64,000 nucleotides of DNA, taken from the NCBI GenBank assembly GCA_021838715.1, contig JAKCCX010000004.1, positions 16,396 to 80,395 on the forward strand, in the 5' to 3' direction. A model generated the notes under the pieces. The model searched no databases, was not told the DNA's origin, and saw nothing but the letters and a program-made list of their open reading frames with translations. Below are positions 2,228 through 12,685 of this stretch, one piece after another; positions within the stretch are counted from its first letter, which is position 1, and each line of letters begins with the position of its first letter. Made by a program: the position numbers and the translations under genes. The stretch comes from Pseudomonadota bacterium (GTDB taxonomy: Bacteria > Pseudomonadota > Gammaproteobacteria > Burkholderiales > Burkholderiaceae_F).

Positions 2228-3505
2228 ATGAGCGCTCCCCGCACCGCCACGCAACGCGGCATTCGATGGACATTCCTGGCCGGCATCCTCGTCACGACCT
2301 TCTTCTCCTGGATCGTCTCGGGTTGCGGCGGCGGCGGAGACACCACCCTGTTCTCCTCGCTCGACCTGCCCGGCATACCGACCGCCTTCACCGTCGTCCG
2401 GACCCAGGGTGAGACCTTGTCCGCGACCCTCAGCTGGTCCCCGCCGGCCAACGGCGCCGCGCCCACCAGCTACGTAATCTACCGCAGCACCACGGCCGGG
2501 ACGGCCTTTTCCCCCACCAATCAGGTGACCTCGATTCCGGCGGTGACCGGCCAGAACTCCTACACCTTCATCGACAATGCCGAGTTGACCTCGGTCCCGA
2601 CCTACTGGGTGGTCAGCGCGAAGAATGCAACCGGCGAGACGCCGACGGCCGAGGTGAGCACCACCCCGATCGGTCCGTCGAACACGACCGGCGACACCGG
2701 CTTCGGCAACAACCTGTCGTCGCCGCTCATCTTCGCCGACGGCTACGGCACCACCGAACTGCCCATCACGGGGACCTGGACCGCGGACGTCGCCACCGTC
2801 GACTACAACACCGGCCTGCGCCCGCTCACCGGGATCCTGCCGACCACGGTGACGACCCTGCCCTACCTCGACAGCGCCGACATCTACAGCCTCAACGGGG
2901 TGTCGTACTACGAGCAGGGCACGGCGAGCACCTGGCAGGCGCAATGGGAGAACGGCGCCGCCGCGCAACAGGACGTCGTCGCGACCTGGGGCGACAACCT
3001 CAGCAGTCAGAACCTCACCTCGACCTCGGTCATCCGCGTGGAGATCGCACTGTCCAAGACCCTGACGACGCCGATGAAAGCCTATACGATGCAGTCGCTC
3101 TACGGTACCCAACTCAACGAAGTGCAGGGGACCGATGGTACGACCTACGACAGCACGACCGCGTACGTGTTCGCGACCAACGCGCACCTGAAGATCGAAA
3201 AACTGGATTCGAGCGGCAACTCGGTGTATGTCCTCTACGACCAGACGCTGTGGCAGGGCGACGGGCCCGGCTTTCTCGCCGGCGAGGTGACCGTATCCGG
3301 CGCCTTCACCTACGGCTTCGTCTGGAACATGAAGAACGTCACGCTTCCCTCGACCGTGACCAAGAGTGGAACCTGGCGCATCACCTTCTCGCTGGACCCC
3401 AGGTCGCCGGTCGGAACAAGGAACAACACCTCGATCACCAGCGCGACCAACGGCGTTCTCGACTCCTCGACCCAGGCGCACATCGACATCAACGTCGCGA
3501 GCTGA
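2228..3505 (+). CDS. Lipoprotein with fibronectin type III-like domain
   Basis: Signal peptide with lipobox-like IVSGC; Fn3-like LPGIPTAFTVVRTQGETLSATLSWSPPANGAAPTSYVIYRST; AGGAGG RBS upstream. Confidence 0.75.
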   Translation: MSAPRTATQRGIRWTFLAGILVTTFFSWIVSGCGGGGDTTLFSSLDLPGIPTAFTVVRTQGETLSATLSWSPPANGAAPTSYVIYRSTTAGTAFSPTNQVTSIPAVTGQNSYTFIDNAELTSVPTYWVVSAKNATGETPTAEVSTTPIGPSNTTGDTGFGNNLSSPLIFADGYGTTELPITGTWTADVATVDYNTGLRPLTGILPTTVTTLPYLDSADIYSLNGVSYYEQGTASTWQAQWENGAAAQQDVVATWGDNLSSQNLTSTSVIRVEIALSKTLTTPMKAYTMQSLYGTQLNEVQGTDGTTYDSTTAYVFATNAHLKIEKLDSSGNSVYVLYDQTLWQGDGPGFLAGEVTVSGAFTYGFVWNMKNVTLPSTVTKSGTWRITFSLDPRSPVGTRNNTSITSATNGVLDSSTQAHIDINVAS

Positions 3506-3561: not shown

Positions 3562-3969
3562 TCAATACCCCACGCGCTTGTAGCGGCTCGAGCCGACGAT
3601 CAACTCCGCACCGGACGGATCGAGCACGACGGTCGAGATTCCCAAGCCGAGCGGCAGGGGTTCCACGTTCTTCAAGGTATCGCCATCGGCCTTCAGGACG
3701 ACCGTCGACACGCGATGATCCGGGCACTGCTGGATATGGCCGGAAAACAGATTCCGTCCGAGATCCTTGCAGGCAAAGGCCGACGGCGTGTCGTCGATGT
3801 CCTTCGCGAGGAATTCCTGGCCGTTTTCCTGAATCACCAGCGTGCGGGCCGGATTCCGGACATCCTGCCAGGTGCCGAGATACCGATCGGTGGGCTTTCC
3901 GCATGCGGAAACCAGGACTGCCGAGACCGCCACCGCCATCGTGGCCCATACGGATCGCCGAATCATCAT
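3562..3969 (-). CDS. Small putative lipoprotein
   Basis: MMIRRSVWATMAVAVSAVLVSACGKPTDRYLGTWQD...; lipobox VSAC; ATGA overlap with the upstream ATPase stop. Confidence 0.7.
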   Translation of the reverse strand: MMIRRSVWATMAVAVSAVLVSACGKPTDRYLGTWQDVRNPARTLVIQENGQEFLAKDIDDTPSAFACKDLGRNLFSGHIQQCPDHRVSTVVLKADGDTLKNVEPLPLGLGISTVVLDPSGAELIVGSSRYKRVGY

Positions 3970-6900
3970 TCCCTTCCCGTAGCAACGCCGGCGCCGCCGC
4001 CGGATCCGTGGTTTATCGAACTGCCGGGCGCGGAGAATACCGTATCGAACGAATGGCTCGTCATGATATGCAGCGCCGCGGCGACCACGAAGGTCGCAAG
4101 CAGCACCGACGCCAGCCCGGCGTACGAAAACCGCTCCCGGCACTGGTATTCGTACGCCACCGCCAACGCGGCCAGCCACGCGACACTGAAACCCACGCCC
4201 CCCAGCACGTCCGACAGCCAATGGGCGCCGAGATACAGCCGCGACGAGGCGATGGCGCCGATCAGGATCGCGGCGAGGACCACCGTGGTGCGGCGAAACG
4301 CGGGCGGTTCCGCGCGCCACAACAGGAATGCCAGAAAGCCGTAGACCACCGTGCTCATGGTGGTGTGGCCGCTCGGAAACGAAAACGGCTCGAGGCCCGG
4401 CGGAAAGAGGCCCGGGCGTCGCCGTTGCAGCGCAAGCTTGAGCATCTCGCTGAGCAGCTCCGCAACGCCCACCGCCACCAGCCAGTAGCCCGCCGTCAGC
4501 CAGAGGCGGTGCACGAGGAACCATGCCAACGCCGCGAGCATCACCGGCAGCAGCACCTGGGCATCGCCAAGCTCGGTTACCGCGATCATCAGGTGGTCCT
4601 CGGCGGGCGTGCGCAGCGACTGCAGCAGACGATGGACGTGGGCATCGACGGCAAGCAGCGGATCCTGGTGAAGGATGTTCTCCAGCACGCCGAAAAACAG
4701 CCAGGCGCCGCCGACCACCAGAACCGCCGCGGTCAGGAGAAACCACTTCGGACTCTCCGACCCGAGCAGCCAGTTCAGAATGTCCTTGCGCGACACCGGC
4801 CGGTTCGTCACCGGTGCCGCGCGCACCGTGGCGGCAACCGCCGCACTCCAGCGCAGTGCGCCCGCGGCTGCGGCGGCGATGCCCGCCGCGGCGAGCCAGG
4901 TGGCGGCAGGCAGCGGTTGCAGGGCGAAGAATGCGCGCAGCGGCGGCACGCCCGCCACGACGAGGAACGCGCCGATCGTCGCACCGAACAAGACCCGCCG
5001 GCCCAGGCTGACCGGGCGCGCCACCTGCAAGAGGACCGCGGTCGCCACCGCAAAGAGCGTCACGGTCGCTGCCGTGCGGGCGTCGGCGAGGCCGCCGCGC
5101 GCCCCGCTGGGAATGAGTGCGTAGGCCGCGAAGGTCGCTCCCGCGACGATGACCCCCGCCGGCAGCGTGAAGCGCAGCACCCGCCCGACGAAGCCGGCGC
5201 GGGCGCGCTCGGCGCGATGCTCGAGCGACAGAAAGAAGGCGGGGATCCCGATGGTCAGCGAGCCGACCAGCGTCAGATGGCGCGGCAGGAATGGAAACGT
5301 GACGTCGGCCACGCCGACGGCGAGCGCGAGCAGCATGGCGTAGACCGTCTTGGTGAGAAACAGGGCCGCGAGGCGCTCGACGTTGCCGATCACCCGCCGC
5401 CCTTCGGCGATCACCGAGGGCAGCCGCGCGAACTGATTGTCGAGGAGCACCAGATGGGCGATCGCACGGCTCGCGCCGGCCCCCGCGCCCATCGCGATGC
5501 CGATGTCGGCGCCCCGGAGCGCGAGCACGTCGTTCACGCCGTCCCCGACCATCGCCACCACATGCCCGCGAGCCTGCAATGCCGCGATCAGCGCCTGCTT
5601 GTGCCGAGGCGAAAGCCGACCGAAGACCGCATGGGTTTCCGCCAGGGCCGCAAGCCCGTCCGCATCCTGCGGCAGATCCTTCGCGTCGACGGCGTCCCCG
5701 TCGATCGCGAGCTGCGATGCGATCCGGCCGACGGTCGCGGGATGGTCGCCCGACAGCAGCTTGATCGCGACCCCTTGGGAATGGAAGAACCGCAAGGTCT
5801 CCGCGGCATCCCCGCGCACCTGCTCGGTGAGCAACACGAGAGCCGTGGGCACGAGCCTGGCGGGAAGACCCTCGGCCGCAAGCGCCTCGCTGGTCTGCGC
5901 CAGCAGCACGACGCGCCGTCCGCCCCGCGCCAGGTCGTCGGCGCGCTGCCGTGCCGCGTCGCCGTCCGGAATCGCGGCCAGCAGCACTTCGGGCGCGCCC
6001 AGAACCCAGGTGCCGAGCCCGTCGAACGTGGCGCCGCTCCACTTGCGCGCCGATGAAAACGGCACGACGGCGGCGGCGACGGGATGGCGTTCCGTCCGAC
6101 AAGCCGCCTCGATCGCCCGCAAGGTCGCATTGGGTTTGGGTTCTGCAGCGACGAGCCCGGCAAGGGCATGGAGCGCGTCCGGGTGCGGGCGCAACATCTC
6201 GAGCGCCTCGAATCGCGGCTCGCGTTCCGTCAGCGTGCCGGTCTTGTCGAGACAGATCACGTCGACGCGGGCCAGGGTCTCGGTCGCCGGAAGATCCTGC
6301 ACCAGCACGCGCCGACGCGCAAGGCGCAACGCCGCCAACGCCAGGGCGATGCTGGTCAGCAGGATCAGGCCCTCGGGCACCATCGCGACCACGCCGGCGG
6401 CGGAATAGAGCAAGGCATCGGCGAGCGACACCGGGATGGCCGCCTGACCGGCGAAGAGCAGCGCGGCGGTAGGCACGATCGCCCAGGTCACGTAACGCAG
6501 AATCCGGTTGATCCCCACGCGCAGCTCCGAACGCGCCACGCGGAAGCGCCGGGCATCGGCGGCAAGACGCTGCCCATATGCGGCCGCCCCGACCCGGGTG
6601 ACGCGGCAGCGCCCGGTGCCGGCGACGACGAAGCTTCCCGACCGGACTTCGTCGCCGGCCTGCTTGGGCACCGGCGCCGATTCGCCGGTGAGCATCGATT
6701 CGTCGACTTCGAGTCCGACGGCCTCGAGGATCACCCCATCGACAACCACCTGATCTCCCGAACCCAGTTCGAGGATGTCGTCGAGCACGATCCCCGCGGC
6801 GGCGATGTCGACGAGTTGATCGGCGCGCAGGACGCGGGCCTTCGGCTGGCTGACCAGCGCGAGGCGGTCCAATGCCCGTTTCGCCCGCAATTCCTGGACC

Positions 6901-7157
6901 ACGCCGATCAGCGTGTTGAGGACGAACACGCCGCCGAACAGCGCATCCTGCCAGGGCCCGGTCAGCAGGATCACGACGAACAGCGTGCCGAGGATCGCGT
7001 TGAACCGGGTCAACACGTTGGACCGTACGATTTCCCAGGCAGTGCGGCTGGTCGGCGTCGCCGTGCGGTTGACCGCGCCGCGGGCGATCCGCGCCGCGAC
7101 CTCCGCCTCGGTCAGGCCATGCAACGATGCTGCTGCTGTCGCGTTGTCCGCCGCCAT
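3966..7157 (-). CDS. P-type cation-translocating ATPase fused to a C-terminal PAP2 phosphatase domain
   Basis: ATPase motifs TGES, PEGL, DKTGTL, GDGVND; C-terminus has PAP2 motifs KLALQRRRP (KX6RP), PSGH and SRLYLGAH (SRX5H). Confidence 0.9.
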   Translation of the reverse strand: MAADNATAAASLHGLTEAEVAARIARGAVNRTATPTSRTAWEIVRSNVLTRFNAILGTLFVVILLTGPWQDALFGGVFVLNTLIGVVQELRAKRALDRLALVSQPKARVLRADQLVDIAAAGIVLDDILELGSGDQVVVDGVILEAVGLEVDESMLTGESAPVPKQAGDEVRSGSFVVAGTGRCRVTRVGAAAYGQRLAADARRFRVARSELRVGINRILRYVTWAIVPTAALLFAGQAAIPVSLADALLYSAAGVVAMVPEGLILLTSIALALAALRLARRRVLVQDLPATETLARVDVICLDKTGTLTEREPRFEALEMLRPHPDALHALAGLVAAEPKPNATLRAIEAACRTERHPVAAAVVPFSSARKWSGATFDGLGTWVLGAPEVLLAAIPDGDAARQRADDLARGGRRVVLLAQTSEALAAEGLPARLVPTALVLLTEQVRGDAAETLRFFHSQGVAIKLLSGDHPATVGRIASQLAIDGDAVDAKDLPQDADGLAALAETHAVFGRLSPRHKQALIAALQARGHVVAMVGDGVNDVLALRGADIGIAMGAGAGASRAIAHLVLLDNQFARLPSVIAEGRRVIGNVERLAALFLTKTVYAMLLALAVGVADVTFPFLPRHLTLVGSLTIGIPAFFLSLEHRAERARAGFVGRVLRFTLPAGVIVAGATFAAYALIPSGARGGLADARTAATVTLFAVATAVLLQVARPVSLGRRVLFGATIGAFLVVAGVPPLRAFFALQPLPAATWLAAAGIAAAAAGALRWSAAVAATVRAAPVTNRPVSRKDILNWLLGSESPKWFLLTAAVLVVGGAWLFFGVLENILHQDPLLAVDAHVHRLLQSLRTPAEDHLMIAVTELGDAQVLLPVMLAALAWFLVHRLWLTAGYWLVAVGVAELLSEMLKLALQRRRPGLFPPGLEPFSFPSGHTTMSTVVYGFLAFLLWRAEPPAFRRTTVVLAAILIGAIASSRLYLGAHWLSDVLGGVGFSVAWLAALAVAYEYQCRERFSYAGLASVLLATFVVAAALHIMTSHSFDTVFSAPGSSINHGSGGGAGVATGRE

Positions 7158-7247: not shown

Positions 7248-10200
7248 TCAGTCGCGCTCCGCCATCGGCTTGCGGCGCCAGTACAGGTAGAGCGCGGGAA
7301 TCAGGTTGGTGCTGCGCAAAGCGCTCCAGACCAGGCCACCCAGGATCACCACCGCCAGCCCCTGTTCGGGCGCGGCACCCTGGCCCAGGCCCAGCGCGGT
7401 CGGCAGCATGCCGAGCGCAGCGACCGCCGCCGTGAGGACGATCGGCCGGAAGCGCACCTCGATCGCCTCGCGCACTGCGTCCTCCACCGGCATGCCGGCG
7501 CGCTCGTTGCGACGGGCACGATCGAGCAGCACGATGCTGTGGCGCAGCCCGATACCCACGAGCGTCAAAAATCCGACCATGCCGGTGGCGTTCAGGCCGA
7601 CGCCGCTCGCCACCAGGGCCAGCGTGCCTCCGGTCAGCGCCAGCGGAATCTCGAGCAGCAGGATTCCCGGAACCAGCAGGCCGTCGAACTGCAACAGCAG
7701 GATGCCGACCAGGATCGCGAATGCCGCCGCGGCCGCCAGGAGCAGACCCAGCGCGGTCTGCTCGAGTTCGGCCGCCAGACCGCCGAAGGCGATGCGGTAT
7801 CCGGGCGGCAGAGGCAGATCGGCCAAGGCGCGCCGCGCCGCCGCCTCCGTGCTGCCCAACGGCCCGGTCGGCGTGGCCACGATGTCGAGGGCGCGGGCGC
7901 CGGCGATGTGCCGGATCTGATCGGGTGTTTCCGCCAGGGTCAGCCGCGCCAGTTCGCCCAAGGGCGTCCAGCCTCCTTGCGTGCGGATCGGCAGCGCCGC
8001 CAGTTCCGCAACGGTGTGTTGCGGCGCATCGGCAAGCCGCAGATAGAGATCCAGGGGCACGTTGCCCTGCGGCACGAGGCCCACCACCTGGCCGCCGATC
8101 AGCGGTCCGATCTGGGCATAGAGCGCGGCCGGGGTCAGTCCGTGGACCGTCAACGCGAGCGCCCGCGGTTCGATCTGCAACTGCGTGACCGGATAGCCGT
8201 CGTTGTCGAAAACGTCCTGCAAGACGTCGATGCGGCGCAGGCGCGCGGTGATTTCCTCGGAAAGTCGGCGCAGCTCGGGTACGGCGGCGCCGAACACATG
8301 CAGCACGAACGGTTGCGACAACCCGGAGAGGCTCTCCCCCACGCGCTCGATGGTCGGCGTATCGACCGCCCGTTGCACACCCGGGAGCTGTGATTCGCGA
8401 CCGATGCGCGCGCCGATCGCGTCCAAGGCATTGACGCCGACGCCGGCCTTCAGCGCCACCAGGATCTCGCCGGCATACGCGGGTTCGGTATAGGTCGTGG
8501 ACGATGCCGAGCCGATGCGGACATACACGTGGGCCACCGCCGGATCGCGCAGCAGCCGCCGCGTGATCGTCCGTGCCGCCGCACGCGTATCGAGCAGCGA
8601 AGCCCCCGGGGGGAGCGTGAACGCTTCCAGCAGCGCGCCTTCGTTGGGCAGCGGAAGAAAGTCGACGGGCACCAGCACCAGCGCCGCAAGGCTGATCAGC
8701 AGCACTGCGACGGTGATCGCCAGGCTGGTGCGGGGGGCCCGCGCGACCCATGCGAACAGCCGCTCGTTCGCGCGCTGCAGACCGCGCAGGAGGCGCCGCC
8801 CCGCGCTCGTGCCCGCAGACGGCCGCGCACCGAGGAAACCCAGGCCCAGCGGAATGAGGGTCAGCGACACCAGCAGCGAGGCCGACAGCGCGACGATCAT
8901 CGCCCACGCGAACGGGATGAAGAACAAGCCCGCCACACCGCCGACGAAGAGCAGCGGCACGTAGATGGCGACGTTGGTGAGCGTGCCGGTGATGTCGGGA
9001 ACCACGATGCTCCGGACGCCGGCCCGGATTCCCTGCCAATGCGCGTCGCCCGACTCCCAGCGATGGTGAATGCTCTCGAGGACGAGGATCGCGTCGTCGG
9101 CCAACAGGCCGACGGCGACCGACAACGCGCCGAAGGTCATCAGGTTCAGATCTTGTCCGAGCGCGTGCAGCGCCCCGACGGCGAGGGCCAGCGACAGCGG
9201 AATGCTGCATGCGAGGACGAAGATTCCGCGTCCCGCCCCCAGCGCCCCGACGAGGATCAGCACCGCCAGCGCCGCGCCGATCAAAAGGTTGCGGCCGAGG
9301 TCGGCGCCCACCCGCGCGACCAGACGGCCTTGGTCGTAGGTCCGCACCCAGCGAACCCCCGGGGGAAGCTGCGTGCGGGTTTCGTCCAGCACGGCCCGGA
9401 CGGCGCGCGTGACGGTGCGCGTCGACGCACCCGGCTGCTTGATCACGCTGAGCGCGACGCTGGGACGCCCGTCCAGCGACACGGCGCTGTGCGTGGGTTC
9501 CGGGGCGCGGACGACCCGCGCCAACGCCTGCAGCGGGATCGGCCCGTCCCGGCCCGCGACCGGAATCCGTTCCAGCGCCGCGATGTGGGTCGGCAGGCTG
9601 CGGGCTTCGATCAGCACGTCGTTGTGGCCGAGGGTGACGTACCCGGCGGGTTCGAGCAGGACCTGCGACCGCACGGCCTGCACGATCTGCACCACGCTCA
9701 CGCCGTAGCGGCGCATGGCATCGAGGTCGGGCTGGATCCACAGCGCCTCGTTGCCGGCGCCGAACACGTTGACGAACTGCACGCCCGGGATCGCGCGCAG
9801 CGCCGGAACGATGTCGGCCACCACCGCCCGCTGCACCCGGGCGGGCGCGATGTCCGCCGGGATCGCCGCGGTGTAGTCCGCGACCTCGTTGATCGCATTG
9901 CCCAGGATCTCCGCCACCGGACGGACCTGCCCCGGCAGATCGCCGCGGGCGCGATCGATCGCCCCGTTCACCGCCTGCAGATCGATCTGCGCGCTGCTCC
10001 CGCGGCGAAACCGCACGTCGATCTCCGCCGTGCCGTTGCCCATCACCGAGCGCACGCTGCGCAGGCCGGTCAGGGTCAGAATCCGGCTCTCCAGGGGATC
10101 GACGACGAGATGTTCCAGTTCGGTCGCACTGGTCCCCGGCAGGTGCGCGTTGACGCGGATCTGCGGGTAGTCGAACTGCGGCAGGACTTCCACGGGCGTA

Positions 10201-10304
10201 CGCAGCAGCGCATCCGCGGCCCACGCCAGCACGGCGGCGAGCACGAGCAGCCACAGCACCCGGCGCCGCAGCCAGCGCGGTACGGAAGGGTCGTCGGCCG
10301 TCAT
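7248..10304 (-). CDS. Efflux RND transporter permease subunit (CzcA/CusA-like)
   Basis: 1018-aa RND permease with duplicated porter/TM halves; LPQFDYPQIRVNAHLPGTSATELEHLVVDPLE N-terminus. Confidence 0.9.
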   Translation of the reverse strand: MTADDPSVPRWLRRRVLWLLVLAAVLAWAADALLRTPVEVLPQFDYPQIRVNAHLPGTSATELEHLVVDPLESRILTLTGLRSVRSVMGNGTAEIDVRFRRGSSAQIDLQAVNGAIDRARGDLPGQVRPVAEILGNAINEVADYTAAIPADIAPARVQRAVVADIVPALRAIPGVQFVNVFGAGNEALWIQPDLDAMRRYGVSVVQIVQAVRSQVLLEPAGYVTLGHNDVLIEARSLPTHIAALERIPVAGRDGPIPLQALARVVRAPEPTHSAVSLDGRPSVALSVIKQPGASTRTVTRAVRAVLDETRTQLPPGVRWVRTYDQGRLVARVGADLGRNLLIGAALAVLILVGALGAGRGIFVLACSIPLSLALAVGALHALGQDLNLMTFGALSVAVGLLADDAILVLESIHHRWESGDAHWQGIRAGVRSIVVPDITGTLTNVAIYVPLLFVGGVAGLFFIPFAWAMIVALSASLLVSLTLIPLGLGFLGARPSAGTSAGRRLLRGLQRANERLFAWVARAPRTSLAITVAVLLISLAALVLVPVDFLPLPNEGALLEAFTLPPGASLLDTRAAARTITRRLLRDPAVAHVYVRIGSASSTTYTEPAYAGEILVALKAGVGVNALDAIGARIGRESQLPGVQRAVDTPTIERVGESLSGLSQPFVLHVFGAAVPELRRLSEEITARLRRIDVLQDVFDNDGYPVTQLQIEPRALALTVHGLTPAALYAQIGPLIGGQVVGLVPQGNVPLDLYLRLADAPQHTVAELAALPIRTQGGWTPLGELARLTLAETPDQIRHIAGARALDIVATPTGPLGSTEAAARRALADLPLPPGYRIAFGGLAAELEQTALGLLLAAAAAFAILVGILLLQFDGLLVPGILLLEIPLALTGGTLALVASGVGLNATGMVGFLTLVGIGLRHSIVLLDRARRNERAGMPVEDAVREAIEVRFRPIVLTAAVAALGMLPTALGLGQGAAPEQGLAVVILGGLVWSALRSTNLIPALYLYWRRKPMAERD

Positions 10305-10307
10305 GAA

Positions 10308-11390
10308 TCAATCGGGAGGCTGAAACGACTCGGCAATGCCGCGGTGGTATTCGAGAAACGCGTCGCGGACGACGATCCGCTGCCCGGGCTGCAATCCGGA
10401 CGCGATCCAGGTCTGCCAGCCGCGCGTCGGCCCCGGCGTCACTTCCTGGGGCCGGTCCCCCCGCGCGGTGCGCACGAGCACCCACCAATGACCATGATCC
10501 AGGATCAACGCCGAGGTCGGCACCGCGGCCATCCGGCGCGGCGGGCCGTCGATGGCGACCGTTCCCCATTGCCCGTTCTCCCACCACGCCGGAAGCGTCG
10601 GCGACGTCGGGAGAAGGCCGACGGTCCGGCTGCCGTCGGCCGCGATGCCCGACGCGACGGCGACCACCCGGACGGCAATCGCCTCGCCGCCACCCGCGGG
10701 TCGGAAGCGCCCGGTCATCCCGGCATGCAGCGCCGCAGCGTCGGCGCCGTAGTATGCGGCGCCGATCCACAGCCTGCCCGCCGGCATGAGCGTCAGGATG
10801 GTTTCCCCCGCCGACATCTCCTCGCCGTCCGCGGCCTGGAGCGCGATCACCGTCCCGGCAACCGGCGCGCGGACGATCCGCAGCGCCCGGGCCGCACCAA
10901 GCTGTGCCGCCGCGGTCCGCACCGCGGCGCGCGCAACCTGCCAGTCGCGCTGCGCGGTGTCGACCGCCTGCCGCGTCGCCAACTGGTTCGTCCATTCGCG
11001 CCGAACGATCGCGAGCGCGCGCCGGGCGGCGGATTCCTGCGCCCGCGCGCTGCGCAAGGCTTCTTCGCGGGCCGTCAGCAGCGATTGCACCCGTGGCCCG
11101 CCGACCTGGGCAAGCACGTCCCCGGCAGCCACGGCGCCGCCCGGTACGACGTGCAGGCCGCGCAAAGTGCCCGGATCGACACTACGCACCGCGAGGATTG
11201 CCGTCGGGGCGATCTGTCCATAGGCAGTCCAGGAACGGGGCAGCGTCTGCACCCGGACGGTGAGGACGTCGGCATCGCCGGCGGCCGCCGTCCCAAACGC
11301 GCCGGCCAGGGCGAGTACGCAGAGCGCGGCGAGCCGCGCCACCGCGATTCGGCCGCACCACGGCAAGCGCAAGGCAATCAGACCGACCAT
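10308..11390 (-). CDS. RND periplasmic adaptor (HlyD/membrane fusion) subunit
   Basis: Signal peptide, lipoyl/hairpin-type sequence (RAPVAGTVIALQAADGEEMSAGETILTLMPAGRLWIGA); directly upstream of the RND permease. Start chosen at ATG 11388-11390, not the longer ORF start. Confidence 0.82.
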   Translation of the reverse strand: MVGLIALRLPWCGRIAVARLAALCVLALAGAFGTAAAGDADVLTVRVQTLPRSWTAYGQIAPTAILAVRSVDPGTLRGLHVVPGGAVAAGDVLAQVGGPRVQSLLTAREEALRSARAQESAARRALAIVRREWTNQLATRQAVDTAQRDWQVARAAVRTAAAQLGAARALRIVRAPVAGTVIALQAADGEEMSAGETILTLMPAGRLWIGAAYYGADAAALHAGMTGRFRPAGGGEAIAVRVVAVASGIAADGSRTVGLLPTSPTLPAWWENGQWGTVAIDGPPRRMAAVPTSALILDHGHWWVLVRTARGDRPQEVTPGPTRGWQTWIASGLQPGQRIVVRDAFLEYHRGIAESFQPPD

Positions 11391-12274
11391 GTCCAGGCAA
11401 GAATCGGCCGCAGCACCTGCTCCCCGCAAGCGGCGCCGACGGCCGCCGCGATCAGGAGCACGGCCGCGGCAACGGCCCACGACGCCGACGGATCGAAACG
11501 GGTTCCTGCCGGTGCACCGGCAAACTCCGGCAGCGGCGACAACAACCGCGCGATCCGCTCTTGCAGCGCACGCCCGCTGCCGATCAGGCCCGCGTCGATG
11601 GCCGTCTCCCCCGGCATTCCGCCCGGCGGCAACGCCGTGGAAACGATTCGAGCGATCGCCAGGACCGCCGCGGCGAGATCGGTCCCGCATGCGCCACAGC
11701 CACGGGCCTCGTCGTCGCGGGCACATTCGAGGATTTCCAGCCAGGCCGCGAAACGGCGGCGCGCCCCGGGCCAGGGCCACTGCAGATCGGTTGCGATCTG
11801 GGCCAACCAGATCCGCAAGGGATCGCGATGCCGCACATGCGCCTGCTCGTGCTCCCAGGCTGCACGCACCAGACCGTCCTCGAGGCTCCTCGCCAGGAAC
11901 GGCGAAAACACGACCCGCGGGTGCAGGAGGCCCACGGTGTAGATGGGCAGTTGCCGCGGTGCGCGGACCACTGCCCATGCGGCCCGGACGGCGGCGCGGA
12001 TCGCGACCAGCACGAACGGCAGACCGGCGGCCATCAGGATGCCGGGGCCCACGCGGTCGGGCACGGGATCGGGTTCGCGCAGCGCCCAGCCGGCAAGCCA
12101 TGCGCCGAGCACGAACAGCGGCAGCAGCGGAAGCCACAGCTGCCGCCACGCGCGACGCTCGGCAAGCCGCGGCGACGGATCGCCGCAGGTGCGGCGCGGC
12201 AGCAGTGCCAGGGCTTGCACGGCCGCGCCGCCGAACACGACCAGCAAGGTGACGAGCAGCGTTTCACGTTCCAT
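11378..12274 (-). CDS. BlaR1-like M56 family membrane metallopeptidase
   Basis: MERETLLVTLLVVFGG..., zinc motif HEQAH (WEHEQAHVRHRDP), TM segments; overlaps the BlaI-like gene. Confidence 0.8.
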   Translation of the reverse strand: MERETLLVTLLVVFGGAAVQALALLPRRTCGDPSPRLAERRAWRQLWLPLLPLFVLGAWLAGWALREPDPVPDRVGPGILMAAGLPFVLVAIRAAVRAAWAVVRAPRQLPIYTVGLLHPRVVFSPFLARSLEDGLVRAAWEHEQAHVRHRDPLRIWLAQIATDLQWPWPGARRRFAAWLEILECARDDEARGCGACGTDLAAAVLAIARIVSTALPPGGMPGETAIDAGLIGSGRALQERIARLLSPLPEFAGAPAGTRFDPSASWAVAAAVLLIAAAVGAACGEQVLRPILAWTWSV

Positions 12275-12659
12275 GTCCCGCCCTCCGCTTGCTGCGAATC
12301 GCCCGCTCGAGTTCCGCGAGCAGTCCGGGATCGAGCTCGTCGACCGCGTCGACCAGCGCCGCGACCGCGGCATGGGGACCGGGCCCCAGGAACCGGTGCA
12401 CCAGATGACGCGCACGCGCGCGCTCGACTTCACCGCGCTCGGCGGCCGGAAGATAGACGAACGCACCGTCCTCGCGCCGGCGCGTCACCAATCCCTTGTC
12501 GCGCAGGCGGTCCACCACCTTGCCGGTGGTCGTGTAGACATGGCCGGCCGGCACCCCCACGCGCTCGTGCAGCGCACGCACGGACGCGGCGCGCAAGTCC
12601 CAAAGCGCGGCGAGCACCGCGTACTCGAGATCGTCGGCGGGTAGACGGAAATCGGCCAT
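12264..12659 (-). CDS. BlaI/MecI/CopY family transcriptional regulator
   Basis: LEYAVLAALWDLRAASVRALHERVG...YTTTGKVVDRLRDKGLVTRRREDGAFVYLP, typical BlaI winged helix. Confidence 0.9.
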   Translation of the reverse strand: MADFRLPADDLEYAVLAALWDLRAASVRALHERVGVPAGHVYTTTGKVVDRLRDKGLVTRRREDGAFVYLPAAERGEVERARARHLVHRFLGPGPHAAVAALVDAVDELDPGLLAELERAIRSKRRAGHGT

Positions 12660-12669
12660 CGCGCAACGC

Positions 12670-12685
12670 TACGACAATAGTCGTA
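12670..12685. promoter_or_regulatory. Perfect dyad TACGAC-AATA-GTCGTA, candidate BlaI-type operator
   Basis: 16-bp perfect inverted repeat 11 bp upstream of the BlaI-like start codon; a TTGACC -35-like hexamer lies at 12689-12694 (minus strand). Confidence 0.7.

Follow-up and report, generated by a model that had tools for sequence, protein, structure and literature searches.

Among P-type ATPases, the presence of PEGL in TM4 together with Ile in place of the Asp of TM6 is the feature pair of a proposed family, P6 (PMC10654040), to which mycobacterial CtpE belongs (family 23). CtpE takes up Ca2+ in radioactive assays; cells that lose it have a weaker envelope and become more sensitive to polymyxin B (PMC5615198). 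On the side of lipid phosphatases, DedA proteins are UndP flippases, and PAP2 domains fused to DedA have been proposed to dephosphorylate UndPP first (PMC10127716). One such DedA-PAP2 protein, PA4011 of P. aeruginosa, is partly involved when colistin resistance emerges (PMC12893004). A P-type ATPase and a C55-PP phosphatase are also paired in the pbr lead-resistance operon of Cupriavidus metallidurans, as PbrA and PbrB.

How does the present locus compare with these systems? It lies in a stretch of 64,000 nucleotides from a Pseudomonadota bacterium (the window, below) and encodes a P6 ATPase and a PAP2 domain in one polypeptide. Like CtpE, the protein has VPEGL in TM4, Ile for the TM6 Asp, ten TM helices and the catalytic motifs, but CtpE ends at 791 aa without a PAP2 domain whereas the window protein is a fusion placed in a Gram-negative RND operon. 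PA4011 is likewise a transporter-PAP2 fusion, although its transporter is DedA and it has no ATPase; the colistin role belongs to PA4011. PbrA and PbrB are separate polypeptides with an ATPase of the metal-efflux type under control of PbrR (MerR-type), in contrast to the single polypeptide with P6 motifs. The closest relatives of the PAP2 half are DedA(VTT)-PAP2-LssY_C proteins of about 680 aa, whose N-terminal transporter is DedA, while the window copy has a P-type ATPase there and no LssY_C. Our literature search found no description of a P-type ATPase-PAP2 fusion, though InterPro may list the architecture without comment. Both parts are of known kinds; what our checks indicate to be new is that they are combined, that the combination arose once by domain replacement and that it has partly decayed.

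The fusion gene

A sequence-only reading had proposed a P-type ATPase joined to a PAP2 phosphatase at 3966-7157, and Pfam and the motifs confirm it, on the minus strand. The ORF starts with ATG at 7157 and stops with TGA at 3968-3966, and its parts are as follows.

3966..7157, minus strand: fusion gene, P6 ATPase plus PAP2, 1063 aa (single open frame, Pfam)
4818..7157, minus strand: ATPase half, P6 (CtpE-type), residues 1-780, 10 TM helices (Pfam, alignment, AF2)
4758..4817, minus strand: linker, residues 781-800, the least conserved stretch (identity comparison)
4053..4757, minus strand: PAP2 half, residues 801-1035, with C1 907-915, C2 928-931 and C3 972-979 intact (Pfam, alignments, PDB profile)

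Pfam assigns E1-E2_ATPase to residues 103-282 (2.9e-41), Hydrolase/HAD to 298-551 (3.3e-21), Cation_ATPase_C to 656-764 (2.5e-6) and PAP2 to 891-1002 (1.5e-17). In the window copy the catalytic set of the ATPase is complete, with TGES at 157-160, DKTGTL at 304-309 and GDGVND at 538-543, and all three PAP2 motifs are present as KLALQRRRP (907-915), PSGH (928-931) and SRLYLGAH (972-979), as had been read from the sequence. In a PDB search with a profile, the PAP2 half matches PgpB of B. subtilis (5jki, E 5e-30). The frame runs uninterrupted over the junction at residues about 781-800, and the seven other genomes or records described below have the same single frame, so that this part of the earlier reading was also borne out. 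Residues 771-800 show about 27-33% identity to the copies in G080, G156 and G749, against about 64% in the flanks on both sides. Long overlapping ORFs in other frames (for example one of 2477 aa, 10995-3562) were set aside as high-GC shadow frames.

Recurrence of the fusion

The fusion was sought with the PAP2 half as bait, followed by reading of the open-frame length. It was found in eight genomes or records: the window copy, three congeners (G001, G002 and G005), G080, G156, G749 and plasmid pB1701 of B. contaminans. Over the PAP2 half the congeners are 82-88% identical; G080 and G156 represent two other families and G749 another order (63%). The B. contaminans protein has 1257 aa and is annotated just as 'HAD-IC family P-type ATPase'. 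Among 399 genomes sampled from the order five have the fusion, three of which come from the genus of the window, and the class sample (369 genomes) gave one further fusion. No additional one came from the phylum-wide sample of 399 genomes, and viral collections gave distant P-type ATPases and weak PAP2 matches but nothing closer. These counts rule out a widespread fusion, so the earlier worry that it might be common does not hold, nor, to judge by our literature search, is it already characterised. An assembly or sequencing artefact joining two genes, also considered in that reading, is ruled out for practical purposes: the same junction recurs in eight independent genomes or records, one of them a single-contig genome, and nothing speaks for the artefact. 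The genomes G080, G156 and G749 belong to different families or orders, yet identity among their fusion proteins is about 90-94%; horizontal transfer is therefore likely.

Structure and topology

Structure prediction, which the sequence-only reading had suggested, succeeded for one half. In the AF2 model of the whole protein, pLDDT of the ATPase half is mostly 75-92, with ten membrane helices within residues 51-780 (51-66, 69-102, 211-240, 245-281, 576-617, 625-644, 656-685, 690-712, 718-736 and 751-780). The PAP2 half, in contrast, has pLDDT under 50 and is unusable, and the relative geometry of the halves is not readable from the model; hydropathy indicates more hydrophobic segments from 803 to 1037. 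The best Foldseek matches (MgtA, SPCA1 and a Listeria Ca2+-ATPase) confirm the P-type fold only. In ten-helix P-type ATPases the C-terminus is cytoplasmic. If this applies to the ATPase half, the PAP2 domain that follows it would have its active site on the periplasmic side, like that of PgpB.

Origin of the two halves

The ATPase half belongs to the P6 (CtpE) family by its sequence: alignment places VPEGL at 260-264 in TM4 and Ile636 at the TM6 Asp position of Ca2+ pumps, and the 'CtpE-like' features reported earlier are thus substantiated. In the ATPase tree, which was built without M. tuberculosis CtpE itself, the fusions form one clade (98/96) that is sister to acidimicrobial P6-like ATPases, and P2-type paralogues from the genome that carries the window copy stand well apart on a 100/100 branch. 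Each of the eight fusions has intact phosphorylation and hinge motifs; TGES reads SGEA in G080, G156 and G749. To our knowledge mycobacterial CtpE is the one characterised P6 ATPase, and what can be said of substrate specificity in the family comes from it.

Relatives of the PAP2 half occur in 92 of the 369 class genomes, and most of these hits lie in open frames close to 680 aa in length. With the corresponding domain of the nearest VTT(DedA)-PAP2-LssY_C proteins, a widespread kind, the half shares 45-50% identity, and in the PAP2 tree the fusions are again one clade (97/97), situated among these proteins. According to Pfam, the window copy lacks both the N-terminal VTT/DedA domain, in whose place the ATPase stands, and the C-terminal LssY_C. 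The latter is kept after PAP2 in the B. contaminans fusion, and VTT-PAP2-LssY_C proteins are present in relatives. Because the trees of both halves give the fusions as one clade, the simplest history would be that the DedA domain of such a protein gave way to a P6 ATPase a single time, and that lineages other than that of B. contaminans later lost LssY_C.

The architecture to which the PAP2 half is traced shows some variation of its own. PAP2 motifs are degenerate or missing in several VTT-PAP2-LssY_C-like proteins, one on the B. contaminans plasmid (L139, 15751-17790) and others at loci L094, L130, L131 and L138, so that loss of PAP2 catalysis seems to be recurrent in it. Two open frames of 896 and 1060 aa in G001 (G001:C1:606480 and G001:C1:1992070) carry VTT domains and are possibly more DedA fusions.

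The genome that carries the window copy also encodes a BacA-type UndPP phosphatase and two VTT/DedA proteins. The presence of BacA rules out the fusion as sole UndPP phosphatase, and since the genome has these genes of its own, the PAP2 domain, and with it the fusion, is accessory rather than essential for UndPP recycling.

The RND operon

In the genus the gene order is BlaI-like repressor, M56-like protease, HlyD, RND, fusion and small lipoprotein; adjacent genes overlap or lie a few bases apart, save for 90 bp ahead of the fusion. In the window these neighbours are:

3562..3969, minus strand: small lipoprotein-like protein (..VLVSACGKP..), whose start overlaps the fusion stop (ATGA)
7248..10304, minus strand: RND efflux permease, 1018 aa, directly upstream of the fusion (ACR_tran 3.2e-174)
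10308..11378, minus strand: periplasmic adaptor (HlyD/RND_mfp), 356 aa (Pfam)
11378..12274, minus strand: M56-like membrane protease with HEQAH (weak PF05569, HEXXH); likely start ATG 12274 by start context
12264..12659, minus strand: BlaI/CopY-type repressor, 131 aa (Penicillinase_R 7.9e-18)
12670..12685, no strand: perfect, operator-like dyad TACGAC-N4-GTCGTA, 10 bp before the start of the repressor gene

A match to the dyad with no mismatch occurs once in the window, and once per genome in G000, G001, G002 and G005, always before the repressor; in G005 the spacer is changed and the arms are unchanged. The dyad, of BlaI type, is likely a dedicated operator. Among the loci examined, the small lipoprotein-like gene is found only in the genus. 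On the plus strand at 2228-3505, convergent with the operon, lies a gene for a 425-aa lipoprotein-like protein with no Pfam match.

The association with RND is not confined to the genus. An RND permease gene is located directly upstream of the fusion in all eight cases, and in the family sample the permease and the fusion co-occur in the same four genomes. Three RND types are involved, of which B. contaminans, G080 and G156 share one, G749 has a second and the genus a third. The permease of the window carries an Asp-Asp pair in its TM4 motif (GLLADDA), which we take to be more typical of drug-type pumps. The RND gene of G749 (L175) corresponds to the first RND gene of G156 (L144), which has two; G749 lacks a TolC-HlyD-RND segment that G156 has. 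In G316 (L177, 7471-15764) a standalone P6 ATPase adjoins TolC-HlyD-RND genes, and the RND there is 58.6% identical to that of B. contaminans; the link between P6 and RND may therefore predate the fusion or extend more widely than it. Near the fusion operon of B. contaminans (L139, 21774-25754) are DUF2282, DUF692, DNA-binding and DoxX genes and mer genes, in a metal-linked plasmid region.

Decay of the PAP2 active site

Is the phosphatase needed in every copy? Among 28 active relatives, 21 PAP2 positions reach a conservation of at least 90%, and G001 is changed at four of them, R914, H931, H979 and Y975. R914H, H931D and H979N hit the catalytic positions of C1, C2 and C3, which are invariant in the 28 relatives, while the structural Gly, Pro, Trp and Asp positions remain and the fused frame is still open. 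In G002, whose fused frame is open as well, C1 is lengthened by one inserted residue and PSGH has become PISH. The catalytic residues are intact in the window copy and G005, and they are kept, with PSGH or PSSH, in the fusions of G080, G156, G749 and B. contaminans. Pooled dN/dS values over the genus are 0.148 (ATPase) and 0.278 (PAP2), a ratio of 1.87 (bootstrap 1.25-2.84); in the G080 group the PAP2/ATPase ratio is 0.79 (0.41-1.5). PAP2 catalysis is thus under relaxed constraint in the genus and not visibly elsewhere, which makes it unlikely that pump and phosphatase are obligately coupled in a chemical sense in the genus; a facultative role is possible. The earlier suggestion that the fusion couples ion transport to envelope lipid metabolism was a fair Rosetta-stone guess, and descent from DedA-PAP2-LssY_C proteins strengthens it, but the lesions in G001 and G002 speak against coupling in its strict form. 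Coupling of ion transport to a lipid phosphatase is possible, and it is not maintained everywhere.

What may the fusion do?

The explanation that we favour, tentatively, is an inner-membrane P6 cation pump and a PAP2 module with side-by-side roles in envelope homeostasis within an inducible RND operon. In one ancestral fusion, a cation-transporting ATPase of the CtpE family would have gained the PAP2 module of a DedA-PAP2-LssY_C protein. The ATPase half would most likely move a divalent cation through the standard phosphorylated-Asp cycle, with Ca2+ as the best guess by analogy with CtpE, and the PAP2 half, where intact, would cleave a lipid (pyro)phosphate on the periplasmic side. The halves would serve the envelope in parallel and not via obligatory chemical coupling, and the phosphatase would be dispensable enough to decay in some species. 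Since both halves point to envelope homeostasis and stand with an RND pump and a BlaI/M56 pair, the operon, in which the fusion is the last large gene and which has its own BlaI-type repressor, may be an inducible envelope-defence module. The transported ion and its direction, the lipid substrate, the topology, the inducing signal and a functional link to the RND pump are what we infer here. Against this explanation, the PAP2 site is kept in B. contaminans and in G080, G156 and G749, and in the latter three its constraint equals that of the ATPase, so the phosphatase may matter there; the mer and other metal-linked genes by the B. contaminans copy fit metal resistance equally, and CtpE is the single source for P6 substrate specificity.

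It is rather doubtful, though worth serious thought, that the PAP2 half in the genus is becoming a pseudoenzyme, retained as a membrane scaffold for assembly, stability or docking of a partner such as the RND permease while the ATPase works. The loss of R914, H931 and H979 in G001 with its structural positions kept, the damage at C1 and C2 in G002, a PAP2 dN/dS that is raised yet well under 1, and the degenerate PAP2 domains in several DedA-PAP2-LssY_C relatives agree with such a fate; all catalytic residues are kept, however, in the window copy and G005, and the G080 group is without relaxation. Metal resistance of the pbr type appears improbable. There, the ATPase would export a toxic cation, PAP2 would free phosphate from UndPP to precipitate it in the periplasm, as PbrA and PbrB cooperate in lead resistance (PMC3431237, PMC4790310), and RND would clear the periplasm. 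The RND and HlyD neighbours and the mer genes near the B. contaminans copy would suit it, and cadmium induces PAP2 genes in P. brassicacearum (PMC2121137). However, the literature describes PbrA as an efflux ATPase of P type that works together with ZntA and CadA, whereas the window ATPase is a P6 type with PEGL whose only characterised relative imports Ca2+. Nor does the BlaI/M56 regulator belong to the MerR-type metal sensors, and G001 has lost its PAP2 catalytic residues. The Asp-Asp pair of the RND permease, too, would be more usual in a drug-type pump. Finally, the ATPase half might have assumed the job of DedA, as an ATP-driven flippase that returns UndP made by PAP2 to the cytoplasmic leaflet. 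The swap from DedA-PAP2-LssY_C to P6-PAP2(-LssY_C), the proposed order of action of DedA-PAP2 fusions on UndPP and UndP (PMC10127716) and the missing cation-binding Asp in TM6 of P6 speak for it, but PEGL, a cation-pump signature, is retained, CtpE transports Ca2+ (PMC5615198) and the genome has its own VTT/DedA proteins, so we consider it quite improbable. A full lipid-carrier recycling machine, whose P6 half flips UndP or another lipid freshly dephosphorylated by its PAP2 half, is a long shot; if true, a bacterial lipid flippase of the P type would share one polypeptide with its phosphatase.

Returning to the parallel roles that we favour, the genus offers a series of intact, damaged and dead PAP2 sites behind an ATPase that is always intact, a ready-made test of the need for the phosphatase. 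By Rosetta-stone logic, a P6 ATPase sitting exactly where a DedA flippase normally sits in the related proteins hints that P6 pumps take part in the same envelope process as lipid-carrier phosphatases.
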